A stretch of DNA of 45,051 nucleotides, from the IMG/VR virus record IMGVR_UViG_3300046459_000765, positions 1 through 45,051 of that record; one strand, written 5' to 3'. Positions 18,804 through 45,051 of the stretch are shown here, in pieces (the stretch's first letter is position 1; the number at the start of each line of letters is the position of its first letter). The notes beneath the pieces are model-generated. The model was given only the letters and a program-made list of their open reading frames with translations, made no database searches and was not told where the DNA came from. This DNA is from a virus. The translations under genes and the position numbers were made by a program.

Positions 18804-19583
18804 CTACACCTCCCCCTGTGCGTTCACGCCGGCTCGCTTGAACGCCCGGGCCAGCTTGGCGATGGCCACGTCGTGGATTTGACGGATGCGCTCGCGCGTG
18901 ATGTCGAACGTGTCCGCGATTTCCCGCATGTTCAGCCCCTGCTCGTAGTGCATGCGCAGGATTTTCGCTTCCTTGGCGTTGAGCACCTGCTTCGCATCCT
19001 CCAGGCACTTCAACACCAGCTCGCGGCTGTCGCCCTCGTTGTCCGGCATGACGACGCCGCAGTCGGGGTCAAGCATCGCGACGTTGTCCTCGGTCACGTC
19101 CGGAAAATTGCCGTGGTAGTCCACGATGTCCTTGGAGCGCCAGAGCGTGGCGATTTCGGACCGGATGTAGGGCTTCGCGTAGCACGAGAAGCGTTTCCCG
19201 CGCTTGTGGTCAAAAGCCTCGAACGCTTTCATCAGGCCGAAATTCGCGGCGCTGACGACCTCGTTGTCGGGCAGCTTGCCCTTCACAATTCGCCGCGCGT
19301 AAGTCGCCGCGAAAAGCAGGTGGTTGGTGATGATGTAGTCGCGCGCGGCGCTCACCTCGGTCGCCGTATATCGACCGCCGCGGGCGACGGTGAACAGGCG
19401 CGTCTCTTCTTCGGCAGAGAGGAGGGTGAACTTCAGGTCCGTCCCGGGGGCGTAGTAGCTTTGGTTGTCGCTCATATTGAAATAGTGGGGGTGCAAGGGC
19501 ATCCAGATACCGAAGCGGGAGAGGTATTCCTCGCCGCGTTCAGCGTGCGGATGATGCGCGTAGCCCACGACTAGGTTCTTCAT
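18804..19583 (-). CDS. Phage sigma-70 family RNA polymerase sigma factor
   Basis: 259 residues from ATG19583, which forms ATGA with the helicase stop; an internal ATG at 19475 is an alternative. Region 2-like sequence is visible at about 60-150: AARDYIITNHLLFAATYARRI, GLMKAFEAFDHKRGKRFSCYA, then IRSEIATLW. Region 4 with its HTH is at about 200-250: LNAKEAKILRMHYEQG, LNMREIADTFDITRERIRQIH. Region 1 is absent, and region 3 is short and acidic. It should direct host RNA polymerase to phage promoters. The five repeated 32-bp elements in this window are candidate targets (inference). It is co-transcribed with the primase-helicase and polymerase. Confidence 0.88.
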   Translation of the reverse strand: MKNLVVGYAHHPHAERGEEYLSRFGIWMPLHPHYFNMSDNQSYYAPGTDLKFTLLSAEEETRLFTVARGGRYTATEVSAARDYIITNHLLFAATYARRIVKGKLPDNEVVSAANFGLMKAFEAFDHKRGKRFSCYAKPYIRSEIATLWRSKDIVDYHGNFPDVTEDNVAMLDPDCGVVMPDNEGDSRELVLKCLEDAKQVLNAKEAKILRMHYEQGLNMREIADTFDITRERIRQIHDVAIAKLARAFKRAGVNAQGEV

Positions 19584-21805
19584 TGTTTTTCGTAGGGGTT
19601 GTTGGGGGTCTGCTTGATTGTCTTGGCGACCGGTCCCTTCGGGTAACGGTTGCCCCGGCAAATTCGGAACGTGCGGCGGAACTCGCCGCCCAGGATTTCG
19701 ATGTCGAAACCTTTTTGCGCCAGCTCGGGGAGCGTCTTGCTCAGCGTGTCCGCCGTCGTGCGGCCCATGGCCTCGCGCATCTGGCAGTCGATGGCCATGG
19801 ACTGGTAGAGCTGGTAGGCGGTGCCTTCCCAGCAGTCGTGCTCGGGATGCTTCTCGACAAAATACTGGCGCATCCACTCGTCCACCTGCTCGCCGATACT
19901 GGCGCTCAGCGATGATTGGTTGGCCTCGATGACCAGGGACGTGTCGTGGTAATGAATGGGGCCGAAGCGCTTTTCCGTGCCCATGCGGTGCGCCGGGATT
20001 TCGTAATCCAACAGGAACTTCCCGAAGTAGGGCAGCTCCTGGACTAGCGTGCGGGCGATTTCGCTGCGCTCCGGAAAAACGAACCCGTCGGTGCGCAGGA
20101 TGGTGCAGCAGTAAAGATTCAGCTTGTCCATGTTCGACATGCCCAGCTCCGGCAAGTGCCGCAGGCTGGCCGCGTCGTTGTTGAGCGACACCCAGATGCG
20201 GCCGGCCCAGTCGAGGAGTCCCGCCGCGCGGAACTTCTCGTTGGAACGGAACGCTTGATTGGCACAGCATCTTTTCAGCATCTCAGTGTAGATACGATGC
20301 GAGCGCGCGTCAAGCCCCATTGTGTTATCGTCGATGGCCCAATTGAAGACCTCGAACAACTCGCTGTTGAACTGGTCGCGGCCCATCATCCAGTCCTGGC
20401 ACTCCGCGTAGCCGTTGAACAGCGCGCCGATGATGTAGCGCGTGTTGAGCGTTTTGCCGCAGCTCGGCGGACCGACGAAAACGGATACCTGCCCGGGCTG
20501 CGGGGCGCGGTTGAACGCGCAGCGGAAAGCATAGGAGAGGTGCGACAGATACGCGACGAGGGCCTCCGGGGACGTCAGCCAGCCGTCGTAAAACTTGGCG
20601 ATGAAGGGGAACTTGTCGCCCCACTTCTGGATGCCCGGTGCCGGGGTCAGCACGTCGCGGTTGTGGATGTTGAGAAATGTTTTGCCGTAGCGTTCCATGA
20701 TGCCTTTGGGGTAGAAGGAGAAACTCCCGGCCGACGTGATGTGGCCTTTGTTTTGGATGAAGGAGATGGCCTCGTCCACGGGCGAAGCGTTGCGGCCCTT
20801 GGGCCGGCGGTCGGAGAGCCCGCGCTCGCAGCGCAGGTGGCGCGACAGGTCGTCCGCGCCGCCGAATAGCCACTTGCCCTCAGACTGTTTCCGGATGAAC
20901 TGCCGGCCGTCGTAGTAGATGCCCTCGACCGCGTTGCCCAGCAGCTTCAGCTGATACTCGGCCACGAACTGCGCGCCGAAAAAGTCGGCCCAGAGCATGC
21001 GCGGCTTGTGCGAGGCGTGGTTGGCGAACGAATAGATTCCCACGTCGTTCACGATGGCCGACTTCGCGCTCGTAGATTCCGGTTCCCAGAAGGTCGGCCC
21101 GACGGCGTCCTTCTTGAACTCTGACTTCCACTCGGTCACGAACCGGGGATACATTTCTTTCAGCTTCGCCTCGACCACGTCGAACGGGATTTTGATGGCG
21201 TCCTTGGTGTCTGCCCAGTTGAACTTCTTGACGATGGCCATTTGCCAGCCAATGAGCAGGTCCGCCGCGATTGGGGTGTCGTGAATTTTTTCCCAGCGGC
21301 AGCCGTTGGTGTAGTAGCGGGTCGCCGAGGTCACGGCGCCCTCGTCCACGCCAGGGCACTGGCGATACGGCAGCAGCTCGTGCAGGTGTTCGAGCACGAA
21401 CTTCGCGAAGTCGGCATCGCCCAGGAAACCGATGGGCACCGCAAACAACCAGACCAGCCGGTAGTGGCCGGAAAAAGTGGTCTCGATGTAGTTTGGTCGG
21501 CGGTCGCCCATGCGCAGCAGCGCCCCGTCCAGCTCGGGCCGCGTCAGCTTCACGTCCACGTCGATGGCCGCGGCGCGGGCGTCGTGGGGCGGGTTCTCTT
21601 TGCTGATGCGCAGGTTCGGGTTGACGCCCTGGAAGCACGAATACATTTCGAACGTCGTCGCCGGCATGTTCGCCCACTTGTCGCGAACCGCCTTATCCGA
21701 GAAGGCCTCCGGGGGAACCGCTCCCAGGTTCGCCGGACCGAATTCCCACGGGACACATGAAGTCACTTCATGTGAGCTGAGGTTGCGCAGACAGAAAAGT
21801 TTCAT
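19580..21805 (-). CDS. Primase-polymerase/SF3-type replicative helicase
   Basis: 741 residues. The N-half looks like an archaeo-eukaryotic primase: D82-V-D84 in AAIDVDV, H114 in FSGHYRLVWLF, and RYYTNGCRW near 160-170. The C-half is a D5-like SF3 helicase with Walker A VGPPSCGKT (K451), Walker B-like NWAIDDN (near 490) and a sensor-like Asn in WVSLNNDA. It should unwind and prime DNA at the phage fork. It follows the DNA polymerase directly (ATGA) and precedes the sigma factor. The length is normal for phage primase-helicase fusions. Confidence 0.87.
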   Translation of the reverse strand: MKLFCLRNLSSHEVTSCVPWEFGPANLGAVPPEAFSDKAVRDKWANMPATTFEMYSCFQGVNPNLRISKENPPHDARAAAIDVDVKLTRPELDGALLRMGDRRPNYIETTFSGHYRLVWLFAVPIGFLGDADFAKFVLEHLHELLPYRQCPGVDEGAVTSATRYYTNGCRWEKIHDTPIAADLLIGWQMAIVKKFNWADTKDAIKIPFDVVEAKLKEMYPRFVTEWKSEFKKDAVGPTFWEPESTSAKSAIVNDVGIYSFANHASHKPRMLWADFFGAQFVAEYQLKLLGNAVEGIYYDGRQFIRKQSEGKWLFGGADDLSRHLRCERGLSDRRPKGRNASPVDEAISFIQNKGHITSAGSFSFYPKGIMERYGKTFLNIHNRDVLTPAPGIQKWGDKFPFIAKFYDGWLTSPEALVAYLSHLSYAFRCAFNRAPQPGQVSVFVGPPSCGKTLNTRYIIGALFNGYAECQDWMMGRDQFNSELFEVFNWAIDDNTMGLDARSHRIYTEMLKRCCANQAFRSNEKFRAAGLLDWAGRIWVSLNNDAASLRHLPELGMSNMDKLNLYCCTILRTDGFVFPERSEIARTLVQELPYFGKFLLDYEIPAHRMGTEKRFGPIHYHDTSLVIEANQSSLSASIGEQVDEWMRQYFVEKHPEHDCWEGTAYQLYQSMAIDCQMREAMGRTTADTLSKTLPELAQKGFDIEILGGEFRRTFRICRGNRYPKGPVAKTIKQTPNNPYEKQ

Positions 21806-22701
21806 TTGCAGTAGCAGGGGACCTCGTTGGCTTCCGCCGTCACGGGGCAGCCCTTGAGCCAGGGCGGGGCGATGGACATGATGTCACGGACCTGTTTCGC
21901 GGTGATGTAGTCCTCGCACTCCAGGACCACCTCGTCGTGGACGGTGAACAGGATGCGGATGCCCGGCGTCTTGTCGAGCAAAAGCATGTGGAACCCGAAC
22001 ACGTCGCGCGCGGTGGCCTGCACCAAATTTTCACAGAGGAGACCACCGTAGAAAACGCTGCGCACGCCGCCCACGTCCGCGGTGTAAACCAGCTTGCGCT
22101 TCATGGCGCCCGTCAGCTCGCCGCTCTCGTCCGTCTCGGGCACCAGCCGCCACTCGGACCGCACGTCGCGATAAACCATGAAGCGACCGGACGGCAGCTG
22201 CATGCGGAAGTCGCCACCGCACGCCGCCTTGAAGCCCTCGTCAAGCTGCCGCCAGAGGTTCACGATGCCCGGGTTCGAGTCGCGAAAGTCTTTCACGATG
22301 CGCCGGGAATTCTTGCCGTAGCCGGACACCATCTTCGGCGTGCCGTCCTCATTCCAGCACAGCTCCCCGTCGCGGGTCATTTTTTGCTCGAATTCCGGGT
22401 CGCCCTTGGTGATGTCCAGGCCGGCCACATTTTTGGCCATCGTGATGAACTTCAGCCAGCCGGCGCCGAAGCCCAGCCCGAGGACGCGAACCTTGGCCAG
22501 CGAATAAATGTTGCCGGATTCTTTTTTCAGGTCGCCCAAGACCCAGTCGATGTGCGACGGGGTCCATTCCATGGACGCCTTGGCGTGCGCGACATACGGC
22601 GAGTCGCCGGCAGCCATCGCGTCCAGGGCCACCTTGTCGTTGACCAGCCACGCCAGCACGCGCGGCTCAATTTGGCTGAGGTCGGAGACGATTAGTTTCA
22701 T
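21802..22701 (-). CDS. Family A DNA polymerase, C-terminal (palm/fingers) subunit
   Basis: 299 residues. It carries motif A at its very start (IVSDLSQIEPRVLAWL, D7), motif B (AKVRVLGLGFGAG, K70-G81) and motif C (FTVHDEVVLE, H255-D256-E257). These are the two metal-binding aspartates and the nucleotide-contacting Lys. The exonuclease and thumb are missing here and are encoded by the preceding gene. The two frames overlap by one base (TGATG), so translation is probably coupled and the products must join to give an active enzyme. ATGA connects it to the helicase gene downstream. Confidence 0.92.
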   Translation of the reverse strand: MKLIVSDLSQIEPRVLAWLVNDKVALDAMAAGDSPYVAHAKASMEWTPSHIDWVLGDLKKESGNIYSLAKVRVLGLGFGAGWLKFITMAKNVAGLDITKGDPEFEQKMTRDGELCWNEDGTPKMVSGYGKNSRRIVKDFRDSNPGIVNLWRQLDEGFKAACGGDFRMQLPSGRFMVYRDVRSEWRLVPETDESGELTGAMKRKLVYTADVGGVRSVFYGGLLCENLVQATARDVFGFHMLLLDKTPGIRILFTVHDEVVLECEDYITAKQVRDIMSIAPPWLKGCPVTAEANEVPCYCK

Positions 22702-23882
22702 CAGTATGCCTCTCCTACGTAGGTCCGGCCATCCGGGGTCCTCTGCAAATATGGATTATCCTCCGCCCGTGGTTCGGGCTTGGGGTCTGGGCGGGCGACG
22801 ATTAGTTTGCGAATGTCGAGGACCGTGGTGGCATCACTCTTGTTCTCGGTGAGCACGCCGGCCGCGGTAACGAACAGGGGCACCTTGCGGAAGTTTTGAA
22901 AATTGAGTCCCGAGTCGCCGGACCAGCGGCCGGTGTGCGCGCCAAAATACTTCAGGCCGAAGGGCATCGTGCCGTCCTCGCGCACGCGGATTTTGAAGGT
23001 CTTCAGCGTGGCGAGCAGCTTGTTCACCTGCCGCCAGTCGCCCACCGCTTTTATCCACGGGTGCGCGGGAGAATACTGCGCTTCCCAGGCATCGAACGCG
23101 TCCACGCCCTCGCGGGATTTCACCGGCGGGCAGGGGATGTTGCACTTGCGGCATTCCTCGGCCATGGCCTTGGGCGACGTGGGCGGCGCGCCGCGGGACG
23201 TCCAGGGCAGCGCGTATTGGCAGGTGATGACCAGCGTCTCGGCGACGCGGATGTATTCGTTCAGCAGCTCAACATCGATTTGCACGCCGCGCAGGCACTG
23301 GTCGATGGTGATACGGGACAGCTCGCGCTCCGACTCCGGCCACTCCGCGCCGAACTTATCCCAAAGCGTCCAGCACCGAAAAGCGTCGCCGCGCCCGTAG
23401 TCGAGCATGCGGTCCCAGCCCAGCTTGTCGGCCTTCAGTTCCTCTGTCGTTTTGCCGTTGGCCTCGCTGCGCGTGGACTTGTCCACCGAGATGTCGAGCA
23501 GGAACGCGCACGCGTCATCCAGCGCGCGCCGGTTGCAGAGGTAGGACGAGAGGTTCGCCGTGCAGTGCCACGCCTTGATGCGTTTCTGCGGTGCCCAGCC
23601 CCGGCGGACCATCTCGTTGTAAACGGTTTGTTCGAACGCGGCGTTGTGCGCGGTGAGCGTGGCCGTGTTGCCCGGCCCCCACACGCGCTCGTCTTCCAGG
23701 GAGTCCCAGTTGAAATTTTTCGGTGGGCCGGCCCAGGAATTCGCGCCGTCGCTCACCGACAGCAAGTAGGGGTCGAAACGCTCGTCCCGGACGTAACGCT
23801 CGGCCCCCAGATGCTGAATGTCGTATTTCAGCTTCGTGTCGTAGTAGGTTTCCCAGTCGAAGCCGAGGTGCGTTATCATCAC
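22701..23882 (-). CDS. Family A DNA polymerase, N-terminal (3'-5' exonuclease/thumb) subunit
   Basis: 393 residues (GTG23882 or ATG23879). The proofreading exonuclease has motif I FDWET (D9, E11), motif II HNAAFE (N80, E84) and motif III Y162GRGD166. The thumb and the start of the palm follow, ending with HTGRWSGDSGLNFQNFRK (near 320-340), DIRKLIVARP and a Pro/charged tail. It stops exactly where an intact polymerase would enter motif A, which opens the next gene. A class I promoter element lies directly upstream with 1-4 bases to the start codon, so the mRNA is probably leaderless. Confidence 0.9.
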   Translation of the reverse strand: MMITHLGFDWETYYDTKLKYDIQHLGAERYVRDERFDPYLLSVSDGANSWAGPPKNFNWDSLEDERVWGPGNTATLTAHNAAFEQTVYNEMVRRGWAPQKRIKAWHCTANLSSYLCNRRALDDACAFLLDISVDKSTRSEANGKTTEELKADKLGWDRMLDYGRGDAFRCWTLWDKFGAEWPESERELSRITIDQCLRGVQIDVELLNEYIRVAETLVITCQYALPWTSRGAPPTSPKAMAEECRKCNIPCPPVKSREGVDAFDAWEAQYSPAHPWIKAVGDWRQVNKLLATLKTFKIRVREDGTMPFGLKYFGAHTGRWSGDSGLNFQNFRKVPLFVTAAGVLTENKSDATTVLDIRKLIVARPDPKPEPRAEDNPYLQRTPDGRTYVGEAY

Positions 23883-24945: not shown

Positions 24946-25752
24946 TTACTGCGCGCCGATGATTGCTTTGATGAACCCTTGGAAGAGGTCACCATTCTTC
25001 GTCGAGGCCCGCAGCTTCGGTTCGAAGTAATAGTTGTCGTCCTTGGACTGCTTGGTCGTGGTCAGCGTCCAGGAGTGCGTGAGGTATCCCTTCCGAAGGG
25101 AACCGATTTTCTTCTGCGTGCGGATGGCCTTGGCACCCTTGGTGTAGGCCGAGCCCTTCATGCCCCAGAGCGCGAGCGTGAAGTAGCGCGAAGGCTGCCC
25201 TTCGACCTCGAACACATACGGGAAGTCCAGCTGGTCCGGGTCCGCGTAGAAGTCCGGCTTCTCCACGAGGAGGAGCGCAGTGGCGAGCGTCTGGAAGTAG
25301 CGCAGCGGGCTCCCGCTGGACTTCGAGGCGTCCCATTCCTTCCAGCTCAGCGTGCCGTTGTGCTTGACCACTTCGGACTCGCTGTTGACGAGCAGACCCT
25401 GCTTGCCGCCGGGCAGCTTCTCCGCGTATTGCAGCGGACGAAAGCCGATGACCGTGAGGTTGAGCGGGGGCGTGCCCTTGTCCGTCTTGCTCTCGGGCGT
25501 GTGGATGACGTTTTGCGACGCCAACAGGATGGACCCGGGGTCGAAGCCCTGTTCGGTGGCCAGCTTGCCGACGAACTGGACGATGTTGATTCGCGGGAAG
25601 ACGATGTCTTCGTAGCGAATGTTGTCCTCATCGAAAAAGCCGGGGGTGGCTTCGCGGGTGGCGACTTCAGTTGACGCGGCCGGCGTCTCGGGTGCCGGGG
25701 GAACCGGCGTCGTGGTATCTTCCACGCCTTCTTTGACAAAACTCATGTTCAT
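24946..25752 (-). CDS. Probable single-stranded DNA-binding protein
   Basis: 268 residues. An acidic/Pro-rich N-terminus (1-40) is followed by a beta-rich core (about 45-260) with alternating hydrophobic strands and aromatic residues, for example VFPRINIVQFVG, PYVFEVEGQPSRYFTLALWG and HSWTLTTT. It lacks a classical acidic C-tail. It sits directly after a Cas4-like nuclease (with an AP2-HNH gene between) and has its own strong terminator. Both are typical for the highly expressed SSB of a phage replication module. The SSB call is from context and composition; no diagnostic motif exists. Confidence 0.55.
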   Translation of the reverse strand: MNMSFVKEGVEDTTTPVPPAPETPAASTEVATREATPGFFDEDNIRYEDIVFPRINIVQFVGKLATEQGFDPGSILLASQNVIHTPESKTDKGTPPLNLTVIGFRPLQYAEKLPGGKQGLLVNSESEVVKHNGTLSWKEWDASKSSGSPLRYFQTLATALLLVEKPDFYADPDQLDFPYVFEVEGQPSRYFTLALWGMKGSAYTKGAKAIRTQKKIGSLRKGYLTHSWTLTTTKQSKDDNYYFEPKLRASTKNGDLFQGFIKAIIGAQ

Positions 25753-26267
25753 GGTTTTTGGATTTTTGGTTGCGGTTTGCTAATGGGAAAATTCAAGCAA
25801 GCGAACTCCCCAAAGTATTTCAACGCGGCGGCATCATAAGCGCGCGCCGCCACCTCGGGTTCCGAAAAGGTCCCCAGATATTCGGTTCGGTCGCCGACCT
25901 TTATTTGGGCGCGCCACTTCCCCCTAATTAGATAGGCTCCTTTAAAGGGGTGTGGCGAAGATTTTCTACGGGCGCAGTTTGTGCCGTTCTGGGCCTTCGT
26001 TGCCCAGCGCAAATTTGCTCTCCGGTTATCGAGGGTGTCCCGATTGCGGTGGTCAATTATGTCCCCGGGGTCCGCCTCAGCCACCAACCGGTGCAGATAC
26101 ACTTGGCGATGCGCCTTTCGGCCCCCAGAATTCCTCACTGCATACCACAGCCCTCCTGGAGTTTTTTGTTTCGCGAACCACCGGAACCCGCGCACCAGTT
26201 CAAGGTCGAAGAAGTCGATAACAGTCACCTTCCCGCGGGACAGTGGCAAGAACACCTCAGCGCTCAT
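25749..26267 (-). CDS. HNH endonuclease with AP2 domain
   Basis: 172 residues. VFLPLSRGKVTVIDFFDLE and FRWFA at the N-terminus, HNH core YLHRLVAEADPGDIIDHRN, then DNRRANLRWATKAQN (about 55-90). AP2 domain at about 105-160: FKGAYLIRGKWRAQIKV, YLGTFSEPEVAARAYD, FGEFACLNF. It is inserted between the Cas4-like nuclease and the SSB-like gene with ATGA overlaps on both sides, so it travels in the operon rather than in an intron. Confidence 0.92.
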   Translation of the reverse strand: MSAEVFLPLSRGKVTVIDFFDLELVRGFRWFAKQKTPGGLWYAVRNSGGRKAHRQVYLHRLVAEADPGDIIDHRNRDTLDNRRANLRWATKAQNGTNCARRKSSPHPFKGAYLIRGKWRAQIKVGDRTEYLGTFSEPEVAARAYDAAALKYFGEFACLNFPISKPQPKIQKP

Positions 26268-27889: not shown

Positions 27890-28365
27890 GATGGAAAATT
27901 CGGTCGAGCGAACTCGCCGAAATGCTGGACAGCGGCCCTGTCGTAAGCCCGCGCCGCTTGAGTTATCGTTTCGAACACCCCAAGATGCTGATGTTTTCCG
28001 TTCACCCGGATTTCGGCTCGCCACTTGGCTCCGCACACCGCCACACCTTTATATGGATGCCGGGCGCCCGCGTATCGCTTCGCGTTCGCGATGTTCTGAG
28101 AGTTATTAGCTAGCCGGAGGTTTTCTTTTCGGTTGTCGAGAGGATTTTGATTCTTGTGGTCCACGCGCTGTCCCGGGGTTGCCCCGAGAATTTCGCGGTG
28201 CATTTTTATTGTGACTCCCGCACGAACCGTCTGGGCATACCCGGTGTAAGGCGTTCCATTTTTCCGAACGCCGCCTGCATAAATCCAGTTCCACGCGACG
28301 ATGCGTTCGTAGTCATCGTCGTCCACGAGCGCGACCCTATTTTGCGTGAGGGGAATTTCTTTCAC
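27877..28365 (-). CDS. HNH endonuclease with AP2 domain
   Basis: 162 residues. EIPLTQNRVALVDDDDYERI and WNWIYA at the N-terminus, then HNH core MHREILGATPGQRVDHKN, DNRKENLRLANNSQN (about 55-90). AP2 domain: YKGVAVCGAKWRAEIRV, HLGVFETITQAARAYD, FGEFARPNF. Third member of the family in this window. ATGA overlap with the secreted protein gene upstream. Confidence 0.92.
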   Translation of the reverse strand: MKEIPLTQNRVALVDDDDYERIVAWNWIYAGGVRKNGTPYTGYAQTVRAGVTIKMHREILGATPGQRVDHKNQNPLDNRKENLRLANNSQNIANAKRYAGARHPYKGVAVCGAKWRAEIRVNGKHQHLGVFETITQAARAYDRAAVQHFGEFARPNFPSCLP

Positions 28366-28907
28366 ATCAGTATCTTCAGCACCTCGATGGCACCTTCGTA
28401 GATGCTGCCTTCAACGGGGCACAGTCGTCCATTCTGGGGCTCGAAGAAAAACCACTGGCCGTCGTCCCGCAGGATGACGTTGATGGCATGGTAGCCTTGG
28501 GCATACGGCTCCCCCGCGGAGAGGGGATACGGGCCGTCCAGCTTAACAAAAGCCACCGCCATCGTCGGCGCTCCCCGCCGGCCGGCAGTGTGCCGCACTC
28601 CCCAGACGTTTGCCCAGTGGTAGGCTTCGAAAGCAAAAGAGTCACAATCCCACGCCTCCGGAATATACGGAAAAGGCTCGCGGCGCGCCTTGATAAAGGC
28701 GAGCATCTCGTCGATTTCCGATTGTGTGGGCGCGAAGTAATACGAGTCCATCGGGCCATTCTGCACCTCCAGATTTTTGCACGCCTCGGGCCAGAGCAGC
28801 GTGTTCATCGAGTCCCAAACAGTGAACCATGGGAGGACAGATGGGGAAGGGTTTTCGTCGGCGAAGATTGTCGCCGCCGCCAGCAGGAGAATTGCAATCA
28901 ATTTCAC
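28362..28907 (-). CDS. Secreted transglutaminase-like cysteine protein
   Basis: 181 residues from GTG28907. Signal peptide (hydrophobic 3-15, probable cleavage after IFA). The possible catalytic set is C88 in WDCDSFAFEAYHW, H140 in GYHAINVIL and an acidic position in FFFEPQNG (E156). The D-C-D-x-F-A, then H-A-x-N, then E-P-Q order is known from phage and bacterial transglutaminase-like cysteine peptidases. It would act in the envelope or outside the cell. It may be a lysis or superinfection factor; this is inference. A weak promoter precedes it. Confidence 0.75.
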   Translation of the reverse strand: MKLIAILLLAAATIFADENPSPSVLPWFTVWDSMNTLLWPEACKNLEVQNGPMDSYYFAPTQSEIDEMLAFIKARREPFPYIPEAWDCDSFAFEAYHWANVWGVRHTAGRRGAPTMAVAFVKLDGPYPLSAGEPYAQGYHAINVILRDDGQWFFFEPQNGRLCPVEGSIYEGAIEVLKILM

Positions 28908-29689: not shown

Positions 29690-30640
29690 TTACTTGGTGG
29701 TCAGTTCGTTGATGACTTTCGTGGCCGCACCTTTCCGCGGCCGGTCGTCCACCAGCGTCCCGCACGCGTGCGCGTCCAGGATGATGGCGAAGCAGGCCAT
29801 GGCATGTGCGGCGTGCGGCTGGTTGCTCTCCGAGTCGTTGTCTTCTCCATCGAGGATTTGCAGCAGGTGCCGCCAAGCCGCGGACAGATAGACCGTCAGC
29901 TTCACAGGCGTCGCAGGATTGCGCCAATTGAAAGGCGTGTATTTCTTCGCGCCCAGCTCCATGACGCGTGACAGATAGACCAGCGACGCGGTCGGAATGA
30001 GCGTCATCGGCGGCTTCTTCATGCCGAGCACGTCCTTGGGGTTCGTGCCGACCGCCACTGCCGGCGCGGTGTCGTTCGGGATTTGCAGGAACGGTCCGCC
30101 GCCCAGGTGGACGGAAAAATACTCCAGCCGCTTCGCGCCGCGCCAGTCAAACACTGCCTTCTCGGCGGTCGCCCCCTTGGATTTCTCGTAGCCCGGGAGC
30201 GCGACGTAGCCGGCACAGCCCATGATGGCCTTGAGGTCACGGCGGACGACCTGCTCCGCGTCCATGCCCTCAGGATACATAGTGAAGTCGTGGTCCGGTT
30301 GCAATGCGTCTACGTTGAAGCCGTCCAGACGGTCCAGCTCGGCGGGATTCACCGGCGTGTAGCCGCAGTCGTGGAGCTTCGCGGCCATTTCGTAGAACGC
30401 CGGGAAGTTGTATTTCTTATGCCCCCGCATCGGTCCGAGGATGTAGATAGCCAAGGGGTTCACCGTCGGCGGAAGCTCCAGCGAGTCGTTGCCATTCGTG
30501 GAACCACTCGGTGTGGGTCCAGTCGGCGTGGCCGGCGCGACGCCACACGTCGCCTTGACCTGTTGGATGATTCGATTCAGCTCCGCAAAAGTCCGCGGGC
30601 CTTTTTCCGTCTGTGCGATGTCTTCGATGCTCATGTTCAT
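29690..30640 (-). CDS. DUF4406 / dATP-dGTP diphosphohydrolase-like fusion
   Basis: 316 residues. The N-terminal part (62-165) is a DUF4406/nucleoside 2-deoxyribosyltransferase-like fold: YILGPMRGHKKYNFPAFYEM, then GYTPVNPAELDR. The C-terminal part (about 200-305) looks like the N-terminal dATP/dGTP diphosphohydrolase domain (DUF5664): KDVLGMKKPPMTLIP, VMELGAKKY, FNWRNPA, WRHLLQILDGEDNDSESN and HAAHAMACFAIILDA with clustered acidic metal ligands. Expected substrates are deoxynucleotides, so it probably reshapes the dNTP pool or supports modified bases. No PurZ gene is present. TAATG overlap with the gene upstream. Confidence 0.78.
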   Translation of the reverse strand: MNMSIEDIAQTEKGPRTFAELNRIIQQVKATCGVAPATPTGPTPSGSTNGNDSLELPPTVNPLAIYILGPMRGHKKYNFPAFYEMAAKLHDCGYTPVNPAELDRLDGFNVDALQPDHDFTMYPEGMDAEQVVRRDLKAIMGCAGYVALPGYEKSKGATAEKAVFDWRGAKRLEYFSVHLGGGPFLQIPNDTAPAVAVGTNPKDVLGMKKPPMTLIPTASLVYLSRVMELGAKKYTPFNWRNPATPVKLTVYLSAAWRHLLQILDGEDNDSESNQPHAAHAMACFAIILDAHACGTLVDDRPRKGAATKVINELTTK

Positions 30641-32666: not shown

Positions 32667-34673
32667 TTATTCCTTGGTTGCCGCCGCGGCCTTCAGCTCC
32701 GCGATGAACGCCGGACCTAGCTGGCGACTGTATTTACAGAGGATTCTCCAGCCCAGCGCGGCCTGCTTCTGCGTGATACTCGTGCGGTGTGCGAGCGCGT
32801 GGCCGATGCGAACGTCAACCGCAGAGAACCCCACGTCGTCCAGCTTGCAAGCCCCGTCGCACACACCGGCCAGCATTTTCATTCCCTGATGGACCAGCTC
32901 CACGCAGCGGTCGCTGACGAGGCGTGCTTCAGCGGCGACGCGCTCGAACGTGAGGCGGACCTTGGTCACGGGTTCGACGTCTTCCACGTCCGCTTCCGTC
33001 CAGTCGGTGATACGGTCCAAGCAGGAGTCGATAACGTTCAGCTTGTCCACAATGGTGCGGGACATGTGCGCGTCCAGGCTGCCCTCAAGCACGAGGTAGC
33101 TGCACAGCACGCTGTCCTTTTGCCCGATGCGGTGCGCGCGGTCTTCCATCTGCGCGTGCTTGCCGGGCACCCATTGCAGCTCGACGAAGATGACGTGCGT
33201 GCCGGCGGTGAGCGTCAGTCCCTCGGCCGCGGCAAGGTTGCCCACAAAAATGTTGCAGTCCGCGTCCGTCTGGAAGCGGTCCACTTGCTCCATCCGTTTC
33301 GGCGCGGGCGTGTTGCCCGTGATGACCGCGGCCTGGGGGAACTTCGCCACGATGCCGGCGACGATGTCCAGGTGGTGCGCGAACACGAGCACCTTGCCGG
33401 ATTCCATCGCGTCCTCGATGAACGCGAGGCACTGTGGCAGTTTGGCGGCGGCGACCTTGTGCCGCAGCTCGGCCATGTCTTCGAACGCCGCGCCTTGCCC
33501 CTGGCGCAGCGCGTGGACCGCCTCCGCGTAGTCTTCGCGACTCTCGCCGGCACGGGCCAGCTCCACGCGGGCGCGCAGTTCGACCAGCGCGGCCTCGCGT
33601 TCCTCCACCATGTGCGCCTCCAGCTCCAGCAGTTCTTTGCAGCCCGCGGCGTCCAGCTCGATGACCTGCCGCTGTTTCGGCGGTAACTCTTTCAGGACGT
33701 CCTTTTTCAGGCGGCGCACCATGATGGAAGAACGCAATTTGTGTTGCAGCTCGGCCTCGTTCGAGTGGCCGGAAAAGTCCCAGCCGAAGCCGTTCTGCTT
33801 CGCGGCGCAGTAGCGGCGCGCGTATTGGAAAAAGTTTCCCTTCGGCCACGCGGACGGGTCCAGGTCGTTCAGGATGGGCCACAGTTCAATGGGGCGGTTC
33901 TCTATCGGCGTGCCCGTGAGCGCGACCTTGCGCGCAGCACGGATGGCCAGCGTGGACTTCGTGCGACGCGCCTTGGGGTTCTTGATGTATTGGCTCTCGT
34001 CCACAATGCGCAGGTCCCACGTCCGGTCATTCAACGCGGGAAGGAACTTGTGGACGATGTCAAAATTCACAATGACGATGTCCGCGCGGGAAAACGGCTT
34101 GTTCGAGTATTGGACCTCGACCGACATGGGGCGGGTCAGCCACTTCTTCAGCTCGCGCGCCCAGTTCAGCTTAAGCGTGTTCGGGCAAACGATGATGACC
34201 GACTTGATGTCGGCGGTGCAGTTCATCAGGCCGATGGCTTGGATGGTTTTGCCAAGGCCCATTTCGTCGCCGATAAGAACGCCACGCTTCGCGGCCCAGC
34301 ACTCCAGCCCGAACGCGACGCCCGCCTTCTGGTAAGGGAGGTAATCCAGCCCGGCCGGGCGGGGAAGGTCCACGTTCGCGTCGGTCGCGCGCGACGCCTC
34401 GGCCACGACGGACCGGCGGGCCTGCTCGGCCTTGGCGGCGACGGGGTCAACCGCGGCCCAGTGGTTCACAATCCACGAGCCGTTCGGCTGGCGCTTGGGG
34501 GAAATGCCGGCCGCTTGCAGCGTGGCCTTGTTCTGCTTCCAGGCGTCCCAGAAGGACGCCGGCACGGTAAAAGCCGTGCGGAGGATGCGTTCGCTCCCGT
34601 CCTGAAGGCGCACCCGCTTGGGCGCGCCCCAGGGGAGCAGGGTTTCGATTGAAATCTCTTTGATGTCGCTCAT
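32667..34673 (-). CDS. SNF2/SMARCAL1-like helicase
   Basis: 668 residues from ATG34673, 7 bases after a promoter -10. Motif I GDEMGLGKT (135-143), motif II DESQ (225-228, in place of DEAH), motif III LTGTPIENRP and motif VI DRAHRIGQ (near 540) are all present. A C-terminal add-on (about 600-660: DVGFSAVDVRIGHALA, then RQLGPAF) is common in phage members. Such ATPases translocate on dsDNA and remodel stalled forks or anneal strands. The upstream ORF extension runs through the promoter and is rejected. Confidence 0.9.
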   Translation of the reverse strand: MSDIKEISIETLLPWGAPKRVRLQDGSERILRTAFTVPASFWDAWKQNKATLQAAGISPKRQPNGSWIVNHWAAVDPVAAKAEQARRSVVAEASRATDANVDLPRPAGLDYLPYQKAGVAFGLECWAAKRGVLIGDEMGLGKTIQAIGLMNCTADIKSVIIVCPNTLKLNWARELKKWLTRPMSVEVQYSNKPFSRADIVIVNFDIVHKFLPALNDRTWDLRIVDESQYIKNPKARRTKSTLAIRAARKVALTGTPIENRPIELWPILNDLDPSAWPKGNFFQYARRYCAAKQNGFGWDFSGHSNEAELQHKLRSSIMVRRLKKDVLKELPPKQRQVIELDAAGCKELLELEAHMVEEREAALVELRARVELARAGESREDYAEAVHALRQGQGAAFEDMAELRHKVAAAKLPQCLAFIEDAMESGKVLVFAHHLDIVAGIVAKFPQAAVITGNTPAPKRMEQVDRFQTDADCNIFVGNLAAAEGLTLTAGTHVIFVELQWVPGKHAQMEDRAHRIGQKDSVLCSYLVLEGSLDAHMSRTIVDKLNVIDSCLDRITDWTEADVEDVEPVTKVRLTFERVAAEARLVSDRCVELVHQGMKMLAGVCDGACKLDDVGFSAVDVRIGHALAHRTSITQKQAALGWRILCKYSRQLGPAFIAELKAAAATKE

Positions 34674-34680
34674 GGCGTGG

Positions 34681-34709
34681 AATGTCGCGCAGGTTGGTGC
34701 AGCCGTCAA
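34681..34709 (-). promoter_or_regulatory. TTGACG-N17-GACATT promoter
   Basis: TTGACG (34709-34704), 17 bases, GACATT (34686-34681), then CCACGCC to ATG34673. GACATTCCAC also occurs at the promoter at 38280, giving a shared -10/initiation block. Confidence 0.6.
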
Positions 34710-35071
34710 GCGGGTTTCGCCACATATCTTTTCCGGTCCAAACTGCGGTGCCGGTCCGTCGTCTCGTTCAGCCAGACCGTTTTGACCCGGCAGTCTGGCA
34801 CCGACACCGCCAGCACAAGGTCCCAGCCCGGGCGGGACAACAGCGTGCGACGCACCAGGACGCCCGTAGCGCGACCGGACCACGTCTCGACATGAATGAT
34901 GCCCCAGTCGTCCAAAGACAGCGCCCGGGGCAGCTCGTGCGCGCGCAGGCCGTCTGCCGCGGCCTCTCGGACGGCGTGCATACTGTAGTCCAGCCGGGAA
35001 TAGTTCACGGCGCGGACCTGCGCGACAAGGTCCGCCGGCAGGTAGATGTCGCGATGGAAGTCTAGCTTCAC
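34706..35071 (-). CDS. Conserved-type phage protein, 121 aa
   Basis: GTG start forms GTGA with the upstream stop. It contains DWGIIHVETWSGRATGVLVRRT and DLVLAV, a pattern shared by small phage proteins of unknown function. A short charged C-terminal segment (DRHRSLDRKRY). Soluble; role unknown. Confidence 0.7.
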   Translation of the reverse strand: MKLDFHRDIYLPADLVAQVRAVNYSRLDYSMHAVREAAADGLRAHELPRALSLDDWGIIHVETWSGRATGVLVRRTLLSRPGWDLVLAVSVPDCRVKTVWLNETTDRHRSLDRKRYVAKPA

Positions 35072-35229
35072 GGGATGTAGTTTTTGGGGTTGCGTTTCAC
35101 GTCCTCCAGCAGGAACGCCAGCAACAGCGCCGCGTCCCGCGCGTTCTGTCGTAACCCCGCCGCTTCGGCAGCGCGCCGTTCGGCCATCAGCTGGTCAATC
35201 GCCTCGTCAACAGGCGTGTTTGTTTTCAT
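35068..35229 (-). CDS. Small helical protein, 53 aa
   Basis: 53 residues starting MKTNTPVDEAIDQLMAERRA. One long helix (AARDAALLLAFLLEDVKRN-like). Coupled by ATGA upstream and GTGA downstream. Confidence 0.65.
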   Translation of the reverse strand: MKTNTPVDEAIDQLMAERRAAEAAGLRQNARDAALLLAFLLEDVKRNPKNYIP

Positions 35230-35477
35230 TTGGTCAGAACCTCCAAAACGTGGAAAATTTCCATGCGTCGCGCCTTCAGTAGCTCGATGGACAATTCCTG
35301 GCGGGCTGTTTCCGCCGCAAAAGTTAACACCGCGCCCGTATCAAGCGGGTGCCGGTGGGCATGGGAAAGCCACTCGGCTTGCCGGTTGTCGGCTTGAGTC
35401 TTGACAAGATTCAGTTCATCACTCAGCGCTTGCAGGCGATTAGAAAGGGTCAGGGCAATTTCGGATGGGATTTTCAT
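35226..35477 (-). CDS. Hypothetical coiled-coil protein, 83 aa
   Basis: MKIPSEIALTLSNRLQALSD start with heptad-like hydrophobics through about residue 35, then RQELSIELLKARRMEIFHVL. Possible dimer. The SIELLKARRMEIFHVL segment partly resembles AAMEIFNIL in the gene at 38737-38934 (both contain E-I-F-x-[VI]-L). Function unknown. Confidence 0.65.
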   Translation of the reverse strand: MKIPSEIALTLSNRLQALSDELNLVKTQADNRQAEWLSHAHRHPLDTGAVLTFAAETARQELSIELLKARRMEIFHVLEVLTK

Positions 35478-35482
35478 GGTGT

Positions 35483-35731
35483 TTAGCGTGTTACCACCTT
35501 GATATCCTCAAGCCGGCACTCGGCCGGAAGGCCAGTCTGCGGATACGCGCATTTCTCGCCGTGGGATTTTGCCAGCCTCACGACTTTCGAATTCGAGTCG
35601 AACCGCTTCGATTGCCAGCCGCAGTTAAAACAACGGCAATGCCACGCTACGGCCCCGCAGACGTTTGTCTCGAAGATGCCGACGAAAATCTTCATGCAGC
35701 GTTCTTTTTTCGTGAGGTTAACCGTGCTCAT
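35483..35731 (-). CDS. Small zinc-binding protein, 82 aa
   Basis: Contains CRCFNCGWQSKRF, then HGEKCAYPQTG and CRLEDI, consistent with a Cys/His zinc site and strands either side. The start codon is 2 bases from the upstream stop. ATG at residue 13 (MKIF) is an alternative. Confidence 0.65.
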   Translation of the reverse strand: MSTVNLTKKERCMKIFVGIFETNVCGAVAWHCRCFNCGWQSKRFDSNSKVVRLAKSHGEKCAYPQTGLPAECRLEDIKVVTR

Positions 35732-35733
35732 AA

Positions 35734-35970
35734 TTAGTCTCCGAGCGAACGCCAGCCGTCCGCCACAATTTTCTGCTCCAGGGTGTCCATCAAGCCCGCG
35801 AGCAGAGCGGGGTCAATAGGTTCGTGCGCATAGGCCCGCACGAGGTAGCCGTTCGGCTCGGCGTGCCGGAAGGCCGCGAGCGCGTCCGCGAGGGTGGGCA
35901 CGTTCTCCACTTCAAAGCGGAACGTGACCAGCCCGCCCTCGCGGAGTTTCCAGATAATCGAATAATTCAT
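35734..35970 (-). CDS. Hypothetical protein, 78 aa
   Basis: MNYSIIWKLREGGLVTFRFEV start, two strands and helices (TLADALAAFRHAEPNGYL), compact alpha/beta. ATGA with the upstream gene; the TTGACA that lies before it is inside that gene. Confidence 0.65.
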   Translation of the reverse strand: MNYSIIWKLREGGLVTFRFEVENVPTLADALAAFRHAEPNGYLVRAYAHEPIDPALLAGLMDTLEQKIVADGWRSLGD

Positions 35971-36203
35971 ATAGCACTGTCGCGCATCGCGCGACGTTTG
36001 TCAAATTCGGCCTTGGACCGTTCCTCGCGCACCGTCAGGCACGCACAACAAAAGCACTCCACACAGCGGTGCCCATTGTTGGCGGAAACCGATGCGTGCC
36101 GGCGAAGCTCGGCCTCGGGCAGCGCGCGGGCCGTCTCCAGCCAATGCGCCCACCAGTCACACGAGCGCCAGTGGTTTCGGTATTCGTTCAAAATCGGTTT
36201 CAT
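35967..36203 (-). CDS. Small Cys-rich protein, 78 aa
   Basis: MKPILNEYRNHWRSCDWWAHW start; CVECFCCACLTV forms a tight cysteine cluster with an upstream Asn-Gly-His (NGHRC), suggesting a zinc knuckle. Basic C-terminus. Unknown function. Confidence 0.65.
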   Translation of the reverse strand: MKPILNEYRNHWRSCDWWAHWLETARALPEAELRRHASVSANNGHRCVECFCCACLTVREERSKAEFDKRRAMRDSAI

Positions 36204-36222
36204 ACTTCAACGTCGCACGGGT

Positions 36223-36393
36223 TCAGGCCCCGCGCAAGTAGTTTTGTGCTTTTTTGTAGGCTGCCCACCGCGCGCGGCGGTCGGCCCACTGCTTCGCGAC
36301 GCGCTCCTTGCGACGCAGTTCCCACTCCTGGGACGTCAGCTCGGGCGCGGGCACCCGCACTGCGCTCGGCTCGTTCTTTGTTTCGTTGCTCAT
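36223..36393 (-). CDS. Small basic helical protein, 56 aa
   Basis: MSNETKNEPSAVRVPAPELT, then one Trp/Arg-rich helix (EWELRRKERVAKQWADRRAR). A promoter ends 5 bases before its ATG, giving a leaderless message, which is the main reason to accept this short gene. Confidence 0.65.
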   Translation of the reverse strand: MSNETKNEPSAVRVPAPELTSQEWELRRKERVAKQWADRRARWAAYKKAQNYLRGA

Positions 36394-42856: not shown

Positions 42857-43543
42857 CTACCGGCAGGCGTGAAGAGAAATGGGCAGGCATCCGCGCCGTT
42901 CCGCCAAGGCATTCTCTTCGTCGCGCTGGTCGCATCGTTGCAGCCACGCCAGCAGGTGCGCGTGTAGTGGGTTCTCTTGGTCCAGGTCCGCAGACTCACA
43001 GCCCAAGCGTTCCTTTGCGAGGTCCACGGCGTTCCATGACGAGTGTTTGGTGCCGATGACGAGGAACCCCCGAAGCACAAGGGCGCACTTCATGTGGTCG
43101 ATTTCACATGCCAACCGCCCCCACGACAGCGCATGCGTGTTCGTGTTCACATAATTACCGCGGCTGGTCTGAATGCGAATGGCCCAGCGCCCGGCCTTAT
43201 GGCACCAGAAAAGCCCGCGGATGCGTCGCTCAGGTTCGTTTTCATCCAGGCCGCGCCATGTCGGTCCATCGTCCGGCCGCTCATACCGACGCGCCAGGGT
43301 AGGCGCGGCAACCAACGGCGGCGCGGCTGCCCGCTCCACCTCACCATTCCAGCGGTCACGCGTCTCGGGTTTCATACGCGAATCCGAAATGCGTTTGAGC
43401 ACCGCTTCCTTCCACTCGGCTAGCCGCTTGGCGGCGAATTCCACCGGCCCGCCGGTGCGTGTGTAGAGGTCCCATTCCCTCCACATCAGGCGCAGGGTAT
43501 GAAGGTCCGCGTTTAGGATGCGGGTGGTTTTGTAAGAGCGCAT
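42857..43543 (-). CDS. Hypothetical protein, 228 aa
   Basis: MRSYKTTRILNADLHTLRLM start. Helical first half; central segment GLFWCHKAGRWAIRIQTSRG, then a helical end with CDQRDEENALAERRG. The IRGLFWCHKAGRWAIRIQ stretch loosely resembles AP2-type DNA-binding sequences (G-x-[FY]-x-x-x-x-x-W) and could be a remnant of such a domain. It overlaps the endonuclease VII gene by 31 bases; the true start may be later (ATG43486). Confidence 0.62.
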   Translation of the reverse strand: MRSYKTTRILNADLHTLRLMWREWDLYTRTGGPVEFAAKRLAEWKEAVLKRISDSRMKPETRDRWNGEVERAAAPPLVAAPTLARRYERPDDGPTWRGLDENEPERRIRGLFWCHKAGRWAIRIQTSRGNYVNTNTHALSWGRLACEIDHMKCALVLRGFLVIGTKHSSWNAVDLAKERLGCESADLDQENPLHAHLLAWLQRCDQRDEENALAERRGCLPISLHACR

Positions 43544-43950
43544 GCTTCAGCGATGTCTGTGCGGTGTTCGTCGTGGTATTCCATTGCGCGCCGGCACCGC
43601 TCCCGGTCTTTCAGGAAACCGATTCCAGTGTTGCAGTTTTTGCAAAGCATCGCGCGAAACTTGCCGGAAGAATGACAATGGTCCACCACCAACTCCTCGA
43701 AAGGAAAAATGGTGCGGCAGATTGGGCACTGATAGGCTTGGTCCCGGGCTTTCTGGCGCACTTGTTCGGGCGTCACCCCATAGTGGTGCTTGCGGGCATA
43801 CTCCAGCGTCTTGTGCGGGTTTTTCTTTTGCCACTCCTTGGTCTTCTCAAGTGCGCACTTGCGACAGTAACCCACGCCCTTGTCCACAATAGAGGGTGAC
43901 GCGGTCGCGCTATTCAGATGCACTCCGCAGTTTGAGCATTCACATCTCAC
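43513..43950 (-). CDS. Endonuclease VII-type recombination endonuclease
   Basis: 145 residues from GTG43950. Two zinc knuckles: CECSNC with CRKC, then CPIC with CKNC. The core VVDHCHSSGKFRAMLCKNCN and GIGFLKD carries the D-H-C-H and N-x-G-x-G motif of T4 gp49-like resolvases. It cuts branched DNA, for example during packaging. The GTG is chosen because the longer frame would read through the promoter element; it is 3 bases after class I site E. Confidence 0.88.
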   Translation of the reverse strand: MRCECSNCGVHLNSATASPSIVDKGVGYCRKCALEKTKEWQKKNPHKTLEYARKHHYGVTPEQVRQKARDQAYQCPICRTIFPFEELVVDHCHSSGKFRAMLCKNCNTGIGFLKDRERCRRAMEYHDEHRTDIAEACALTKPPAS

Positions 43951-43953
43951 ACC

Positions 43954-43985
43954 TATCCCAGTGTGGCATTTTCCCAGATTGTCAA
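43954..43985 (-). promoter_or_regulatory. Class I repeated promoter element, site E
   Basis: TTGACA (43985-43980), 13 bases, CCACACTGGGATA (43966-43954), 3 bases to GTG43950. It abuts the inverted repeat and drives the leftward cluster from its right end. Confidence 0.75.
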
Positions 43986-43987
43986 GA

Positions 43988-44109
43988 CCGGAAGTCAACC
44001 AACTAACGCCGCCCCATATCCCCAGGGCCTACCACTTCTCTTTTTTTCTAATTTTTTATAATACCCTTTGGATTGGGATATGGGGCGGCGTTAGTTGGTT
44101 GACTTCCGG
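43988..44109. repeat. Perfect 35-bp inverted repeat around AT-rich centre
   Basis: Left arm 43988-44022 and right arm 44075-44109 are exact inverted complements (35 of 35 bases; arms begin CCGGAAGTCAACC and end TTGACTTCCGG). The 52-base spacer is AT-rich, with T7, T6 and TATAAT tracts. Each arm has a TTGACT pointing outward. The repeat lies between divergent transcription units, so it is not a simple end-of-operon terminator. A replication origin, packaging site or divergent control region are the candidates. Confidence 0.9.
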
Positions 44110-44142: not shown

Positions 44143-44171
44143 TTGACTTTTCACCGTTTCGCCCCACCTCT
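44143..44171 (+). promoter_or_regulatory. Possible rightward promoter TTGACT-N17-ACCTCT
   Basis: TTGACT (44143-44148) ends 33 bases before ATG44181, the same distance as in the other leaderless promoters. No good -10; ACCTCT at 17 bases, CCCCACC where the class I sites have CCACACT. Confidence 0.4.
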
Positions 44172-44180
44172 TAAACGGAC

Positions 44181-44342
44181 ATGCAAGACCCCAAAGACAT
44201 CGAACGGGAACTTTTCAAGGCGGCGCCTCACGCGGCACAGAAGCTGCACGCTGAAGCCAAGAAGCTGATACGCAAGCAGAAACGTGAGCAGTGGTGGAAG
44301 GTCCACGCGACCGACCGCGCGAAGAAGCCGCTCGGCAGCTGA
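44181..44342 (+). CDS. Small basic protein, 53 aa
   Basis: MQDPKDIERELFKAAPHAAQ, then a lysine-rich helix (LHAEAKKLIRKQKREQWW). First gene of the rightward unit, just before the probable small terminase. It may be a DNA-binding accessory factor, by charge alone. Confidence 0.65.
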   Translation: MQDPKDIERELFKAAPHAAQKLHAEAKKLIRKQKREQWWKVHATDRAKKPLGS

Positions 44343-44345
44343 CCT

Positions 44346-44996
44346 ATGTTGCTCAACAAGAACAAGTTAGACGTGAGTCAAATCCTACTGACCTACGTTG
44401 CGCTGTGCGGCGACGTCGCCCGCACGGCCGAGGCGCTGAACCTCGAACCGGCAGTTGTCCAAGCCCTGGCCGATGCCGAGAACTGGGGAACGAAGATTCA
44501 ACGAGTTACGATGCTGGCCAAGTCCGGCAAGCCGGGCGATTTCGAACGTGCTCAGAACCGGGCACTTGCATTCGTTCAGGGCCACCGCATCCGCTCCCTG
44601 TTGGACAGCGTAATCCGTCGCTTCGACGGCATGACGCCCGAGGAGATGTGCGACGCGGTGTCCAGCGTGAGCAAGAATGGCACACGCATCCTGTCGGCCC
44701 GCTATTTTACGGACCTCGCAGCCGCGGCCGAGAAGGCTAACGCTATGTGCTACAGCGCCTTGGGCGATACTGCCGGCGAGCGCGTGGCCCGCGATGATGA
44801 GCCGGACCAGATGAATGTCTCTGCGCTGCATAGTGCTGTGATTCAGTCACTTAACGCGGCCAATAGCCACGGCAAGCCGGCAGACCAGATAGTCAAGGAG
44901 CTGGCTGACGCAGTGTGCCAAGCTGTCACACCCATCGAGCGAACCGAGGTCGAGCCGCGTCCCGACCCCGCCGTCCCAGCCAGTGTGCCAACTTGA
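44346..44996 (+). CDS. Probable small terminase subunit
   Basis: 216 residues. The N-terminus contains a helix-turn-helix (YVALCGDVARTAEALNLEPA, then VQALADAEN), followed by a helical oligomerisation-like middle (ALAFVQGHRIRSLLDSVIRR) and a Pro-rich C-tail (VEPRPDPAVPAS). HTH, length and position at the head of the late, rightward unit suit a small terminase that recognises the packaging site. No signature proves it; other DNA-binding proteins would also fit. Confidence 0.55.
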   Translation: MLLNKNKLDVSQILLTYVALCGDVARTAEALNLEPAVVQALADAENWGTKIQRVTMLAKSGKPGDFERAQNRALAFVQGHRIRSLLDSVIRRFDGMTPEEMCDAVSSVSKNGTRILSARYFTDLAAAAEKANAMCYSALGDTAGERVARDDEPDQMNVSALHSAVIQSLNAANSHGKPADQIVKELADAVCQAVTPIERTEVEPRPDPAVPASVPT

Positions 44997-45004
44997 CCCA
45001 CCTC

Positions 45005-45051
45005 ATGCGCCAATCTGACACACCCCGAAGCGCGGCCTGGAGGTCCTTGGC
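45005..45051 (+). CDS. Start of next gene, partial
   Basis: ATG45005 opens MRQSDTPRSAAWRSL and runs off the right edge without a stop. Eight bases after the previous stop, same direction. If the previous gene is a small terminase, this could begin the large terminase, but nothing here shows that. Confidence 0.4.
   Translation, partial: MRQSDTPRSAAWRSL

Follow-up and report, generated by a model that had tools for sequence, protein, structure and literature searches.

A long inverted repeat located between divergent promoter-like motifs in a phage genome appears, from comparison of the related sequences, to be conserved as structure and not as sequence. It was found in the window, that is, the whole 45-kb virus record analyzed here (45,051 nucleotides), which is a fragment of an uncharacterised phage of about 73 kb. 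In the relatives the letters of the arms have been repeatedly replaced without loss of the ability to fold back, a pattern suggestive of a DNA hairpin working by its shape. From the established structure and position of the repeat, and from its persistence through sequence replacement, we infer, tentatively, that the element is kept for its shape as a former of a hairpin or cruciform between divergent promoters and that it likely opens the DNA at this site, which we call the hub.

The element (43988-44109, no strand assigned) consists of a left arm of 35 bp (43988-44022), a loop of 52 bp (44023-44074) and a right arm of 35 bp (44075-44109) that is the perfect reverse complement of the left arm. 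The original observation was correct: the repeat is perfect, 35 of the 35 arm bases being complementary, and its 52-bp spacer is AT-rich; the outward-facing TTGACT in both arms and the T-tracts and TATAAT in the spacer are also all present. The GC content is 60% in the arms and 33% in the loop, compared with 57-68% per kb across the window, so that the loop resembles the AT-rich unwinding region of an origin. The repeat is the longest inverted repeat in the window and the only one over the threshold of our script. Its score was 35. By comparison, the best scores were 11-15 when the window was simulated 20 times with a first-order Markov model, and in 55 background chunks of 3.3 kb the maximum was 14; these values rule out a chance origin. 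When the 122-nt element was folded as single-stranded DNA, the energy was -45.2 kcal/mol versus a shuffle mean of -12.0 (z = -14). The folding of seven elements exceeded that of shuffles by far (z -6.5 to -14); that is, they are predicted to form stable DNA hairpins, as supercoil-extruded elements do.

Evidence that the repeat is an artefact of contig joining had been named as something that would refute the original reading. Such an artefact can be excluded because identical copies occur in contigs from three other metagenomes (L003, L004 and L005). In these contigs the arms are the same letter for letter, the 122 bp of the element are unchanged, and the element together with up to 200 bp per side shows 0/522, 1/522 and 0/480 differences, respectively. 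The hub DNA had no match among named phage or plasmid records, neither host or prophage relatives nor an exact 21-mer of the arm were found in the genome contigs searched, and the titles and abstract starts of the open-licence literature contained no paper describing such an element in a phage.

The divergent gene arrangement at the repeat was confirmed. A leftward promoter-like motif, TTGACA-N17-ACTGGG (43957-43985, minus strand), is situated 2 bp outside the left arm, and a rightward one, TTGACT-N17-ACCTCT, lies at 44143-44171 (plus strand). Both were read manually; the sigma-70 scan missed the leftward motif and called no consensus promoter, and the TATAAT of the spacer is not part of one. 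Inspection by eye of the groups of arm sequences described below revealed a leftward TTGACA-like hexamer, a distance of 17 or 18 nt, and ACTG at or adjoining the left arm in all eight near groups (A to H), the hexamer of group B being inside the left arm. A rightward TTGAC-N17-AC motif was likewise seen to the right of the repeat in groups A to D and H. The window encodes a phage sigma factor (18804-20270, minus strand) that contains regions 2 and 4 and may read the unusual TTGACA-N17-ACTGG motif of the hub.

On the left side, an inserted endonuclease VII-like gene (43513-43945, minus strand; PF02945, E 4.5e-16; phrog_2633, E 5.3e-25; start codon uncertain) separates the repeat of the window from what is usually the first leftward gene. 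This gene is mobile: it lies left of the repeat here and elsewhere in G005, and it had no match in 6 of the 9 records searched. In L015 an endonuclease VII-related gene sits between the repeat and the conserved rightward ORF. The gene that usually comes first leftward in the near clade (42857-43543, minus strand) encodes a fast-evolving protein, the identity of the window protein being 76% with L009, 45% with L014 and 26% with L011; between the window and L014, another leftward protein is 93% identical and the primase-like protein 94%. The model of this fast-evolving protein has a beta-beta-beta-alpha core that is AP2-like, which we take as a lead only. On the right side, a 53-aa ORF (44181-44342, plus strand) is the first gene, and small ORFs are similarly placed in the relatives by eye. 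It is followed by a conserved 216-aa ORF (44346-44996, plus strand). The assignment of this ORF as a probable small terminase is not established, as it had no PHROG or Pfam match and its model (pLDDT 69) had no significant PDB match; it is a candidate small terminase at most. Three imperfect 22-nt direct repeats are found at its end (44911-45024).

The relatives, of 69-74 kb, share the same primase-like protein (12 of the 13 records searched). Among the leftward genes are those for a split DNA polymerase A, exonucleases, a DUF5906-like protein and the sigma factor, so that the proposal of a leftward early cluster was reasonable. The DUF5906-like protein, of which the Pfam match is sub-threshold, is the one called primase-like here and is a putative primase/helicase. 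A RuvC-like resolvase, an SNF2 helicase and endonuclease VII also belong to the gene content. The primase-like protein had no match in phage records, and the terminase-large-like protein had one weak match in phage records and none in plasmids. A terminal identity of 127 bp was found at different places in G002 and G004, and G010 wraps within the primase-like gene, indicating that the contigs are circular or permuted assemblies. Several other features of the gene content were observed. The family A DNA polymerase is encoded by two adjacent ORFs (21802-23882, minus strand) matching consecutive parts of phrog_17 (668-1005 and 1007-1230), and G004 has a similar pair (34365-35435 and 35432-36331). 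A 2433-aa protein (4147-11448, plus strand), of 2151-2636 aa in four relatives, matched solely DUF7178 in Pfam, near its C-terminus, and no polymerase in PDB, a search that a divergent polymerase could escape. On the minus strand we also found a small protein with an agglutinin C-terminal Pfam match barely over the cut-off (28362-28907), an HNH endonuclease with a sub-threshold AP2 match (25749-26267), and a DUF4406 domain fused to a dATP/dGTP diphosphohydrolase N-terminal domain (29690-30640).

The 216-aa ORF was used as the query for relatives, and the last of several scans gave 45 related contigs. A long inverted repeat was present upstream of this ORF, at the same hub, in 28 of them; it was weak in 2 and lacking in 12. 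In the other three (L044, L092 and L098) the upstream sequence was too short for judging, the 554 bp available in L098 showing no repeat. The weak repeats, those of L100 and L102, scored 15 and 14, about equal to the background maximum. Counted as 26 distinct lineages, 15 had a strong repeat, 2 a weak one and 9 none. At six more loci (L090, L093, L097, L100, L102 and L103) the repeat lies between the leftward gene and the rightward ORFs. Among 12 complete or near-complete genomes, six have the repeat, and in every one of these six no other inverted repeat of the genome scores as high (18-43 versus 12-17 for the second-best). The other six contain no such repeat genome-wide; they keep the same hub and the primase-like homologue, and thus the repeat is not essential to the group. 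Its distribution on the tree is patchy, with 7-8 changes, which is not clearly fewer than for shuffled labels (77 of 500 shuffles were as low). No protein co-occurred perfectly with the repeat. In L046 (4557-4767) a second, outer inverted repeat, TTATGGAACAC / GTGTTCCATAA, was seen by eye to enclose the main one.

The expectation that the hairpin would be conserved in relatives was therefore borne out for its presence at the same hub and not for its sequence. The arms fall into 15 sequence groups (A to O), mostly without detectable homology, with arms of 27-75 bp, 0-10 mismatches and loops of 47-98 bp. At p<=0.005, arm homology was found in only 2 of the 105 group pairs (A/B and E/H), and in 2 when the arms were flipped, and loop homology in 9 pairs directly and 6 inverted, these p values being uncorrected for 420 tests and the loop matches being inflated by the AT-richness of the loops. 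In near relatives the loops and left flanks stay homologous while the arms differ: for B/D, E/F and E/G the loop and left flank are homologous (p=0.003, the floor of the test) but the arms are not (p 0.31-0.98), and B and D have a common loop and common flanks around different arms. Even the sister lineages L015 and L016 (support 100/98) have unrelated arms. Nevertheless, the repeat persists in all eight near lineages despite this turnover of arm sequence.

Where arms could be compared, the B/C pair showed 3 both-sided changes, all still paired, and no one-sided change; the E/H pair showed 8 both-sided changes, 6 of them paired in both lineages, and 4 one-sided changes. Pairing is maintained through base change, as is expected of supercoil-extruded hairpin elements. 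The five mismatches of group H are identical in four contigs, which indicates that repair of the arms is not immediate. In 16 of 17 elements the loop had a higher AT content than the arms. No helical phasing of loop lengths was detected in the 17 elements (Rayleigh p 0.51-0.99), which argues against two arm sites bridged by one protein and hence counts against protein-bridged looping. Copying of the arms from elsewhere was rejected as well, because the longest arm word outside its own element was 12-16 nt in the fetched sequences, the longest of these words being the A/B homology. There was also no sign of an invertible segment, since strain-level copies show one loop orientation and the loops of B/D, E/F and E/G match directly. 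The six inverted loop matches (C/D, C/F, C/I, C/L, F/H and H/I) are weak ones within AT-rich sequence, and the C/D loops match directly as well as inverted.

We also analyzed the skew of the 12 complete or near-complete genomes, half of which have the repeat, because an inflection at the hub had been suggested as a check. The minimum of the cumulative purine skew was within 0.5 kb of the hub in 10 genomes; in the remaining two it was no more than 3.7 kb away. The maximum was 40-48 kb from the hub in all 12. As the turn at the hub occurs in 12 of 12 genomes, with or without the repeat, the skew follows gene orientation; that is, the turn is a mark of the two divergent gene blocks. GC skew alone had no consistent minimum at the hub in these genomes. 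A GC-skew minimum at the replication origin is common but not universal. A replication origin at the repeat is possible; the lack of a consistent GC-skew minimum, and the complete relatives that keep the hub and the primase-like gene and have no repeat, count against it.

How might such an element act? It is well established, as twin-domain supercoiling, that divergent transcription underwinds the DNA between promoters of this kind. The element would lie between the divergent promoters of the only two gene blocks of the phage, and with RNA synthesis heading outward on either side, the DNA in between would become underwound. AT-rich gaps are described as favoring cruciforms (PMC3176155), and the AT-rich middle could let the arms extrude, leaving a single-strand loop of 47-98 nt depending on the relative. 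The opened hub DNA may then be an entry point for the replication proteins of the phage, or alternatively it may act as a switch through which supercoiling controls the divergent promoters. Selection for pairing would keep the arms matching, aided by template switching between the arms, which we infer together with extrusion and the opening role. Opening of the DNA at the hub, for replication or transcription, is the most likely use of the element, and a cruciform between divergent promoters fits best among the readings originally proposed, which are supported in part. A more specific proposal, that in this group of ~73-kb phages a sequence-independent cruciform starts both replication and divergent transcription, that any arms serve provided that they pair, and that template switching continually exchanges the arms and matches them anew, seems to us doubtful.

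Known systems resemble the element in part. The hairpins of phage N4, which are read by its giant virion RNA polymerase, have stems of 5-7 bp and loops of 3 nt. The N4 early promoters are described as hairpins extruded by negative supercoiling, in which the non-conserved stem bases matter for pairing alone (PMC4496689), and they are alike in placing a supercoil-driven hairpin at an early control region (PMC4496689). They differ in having short stems with fixed key bases, whereas the phage group here has arms of 26-75 bp and loops of 47-98 nt (a 35-bp stem and a 52-nt loop in the window, not a short stem with a 3-nt loop), no fixed bases were seen, and the searches with the 2433-aa protein, which a divergent polymerase could escape, showed no N4-type one. 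In the origin of plasmid pT181, a rolling-circle initiator that acts at a nick site enhances cruciform extrusion. This origin is alike in having a cruciform where DNA must open, but no such initiator was found among the genes scanned here. The lambda origin is described as inverted initiator sites beside an AT-rich opening region, with activation by transcription in the vicinity (PMC5043065). It is alike in combining inverted sites with an AT-rich region of which the opening can be helped by transcription (PMC5043065); in contrast, lambda has four short fixed-sequence iterons beside the AT region, and here one long, sequence-free pair of arms encloses it. The coding palindromes of Nematomorpha mitochondria are reported to be long perfect inverted repeats kept by pairing, for which template switching was proposed (PMC6649704). 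Those are many copies inside genes, whereas each genome here that has the repeat holds a single copy, at a fixed intergenic control site. The target of a protelomerase is a continuous palindrome without a spacer, and the 52-bp spacer of the window repeat does not fit it. We rate the element as a variant of the supercoil-extruded hairpin elements exemplified by the N4 promoters and the pT181 origin.

The main rival to this reading is a paired operator, in which a regulator binds the same site in both arms, controls both promoters and diverges together with the arms. The candidate regulator would be the AP2-like product of the neighboring leftward gene, which evolves fast, as a co-evolving binding partner might (45% identity with L014); the AP2 layout is three strands and a helix, the modeled core of this protein is beta-beta-beta-alpha, and a promoter-like motif adjoins the left arm. 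The residue pattern and model topology suggested an AP2 domain, but neither Pfam, Foldseek nor VIA-align (which covered mainly residues 1-81) confirmed it: the protein had no Pfam or significant fold match, the AP2 chain 3igm reached E 3.1, and the only match toward AP2 was that of the L043 protein (phrog_99, E 2e-5). Moreover, profile comparison gave no alignment between the near and far versions of the protein; in lineages that lack the repeat, the first leftward gene also looks AP2-like by eye; the arms are near-identical over their whole 26-75 bp, far longer than a usual operator; and helical phasing is lacking. We regard this possibility as rather unlikely. Also unlikely, in our judgment, is that the repeats are functionless by-products made and mended by template switching or fold-back synthesis at an AT-rich supercoiled spot. 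Template switching is described as able to create and repair perfect stems (PMC8794818), and the patchy distribution and the freely varying spacing and length agree with such an origin. It does not readily explain why, in all six genomes having such a repeat, the highest-scoring one is found at this same site, or why the repeat was kept in 8 of 8 near lineages while the arms turned over. Spacer inversion is described as a by-product of template switching (PMC8604942), and it is not seen in B/D, E/F and E/G, of which the loops match directly.

Two further readings have a much smaller chance. The repeat is upstream of the conserved, helical 216-aa ORF, and a hairpin is reported at the T7 junction (PMC4281155), so a packaging-initiation site (pac or concatemer junction) near a small terminase gene was conceivable. 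It was not supported and is very unlikely: the ORF has no terminase match and the terminase-large-like gene is ~6.7 kb away in G002, the contigs end at many differing distances from the hub (a circular assembly could hide the true ends), the wrap of G010 is inside the primase-like gene, and 12 related contigs have no repeat. As for a terminator or leader structure in RNA, a transcript across the element would fold. However, both promoter-like motifs read away from the element, the plus-strand mismatches show no clear bias (14 G.T versus 11 A.C), the element has no match in Rfam, and the scan called no terminator at it, which makes an RNA-level hairpin highly improbable.

Cruciforms form readily in the test tube, but their usefulness in cells is difficult to prove. 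Nature has here placed 15 arm sequences at one site, so that exchanging arms between relatives offers a direct way to ask whether shape or sequence matters. The element also offers a case in which to study how long DNA stems arise and how their matching is kept up.
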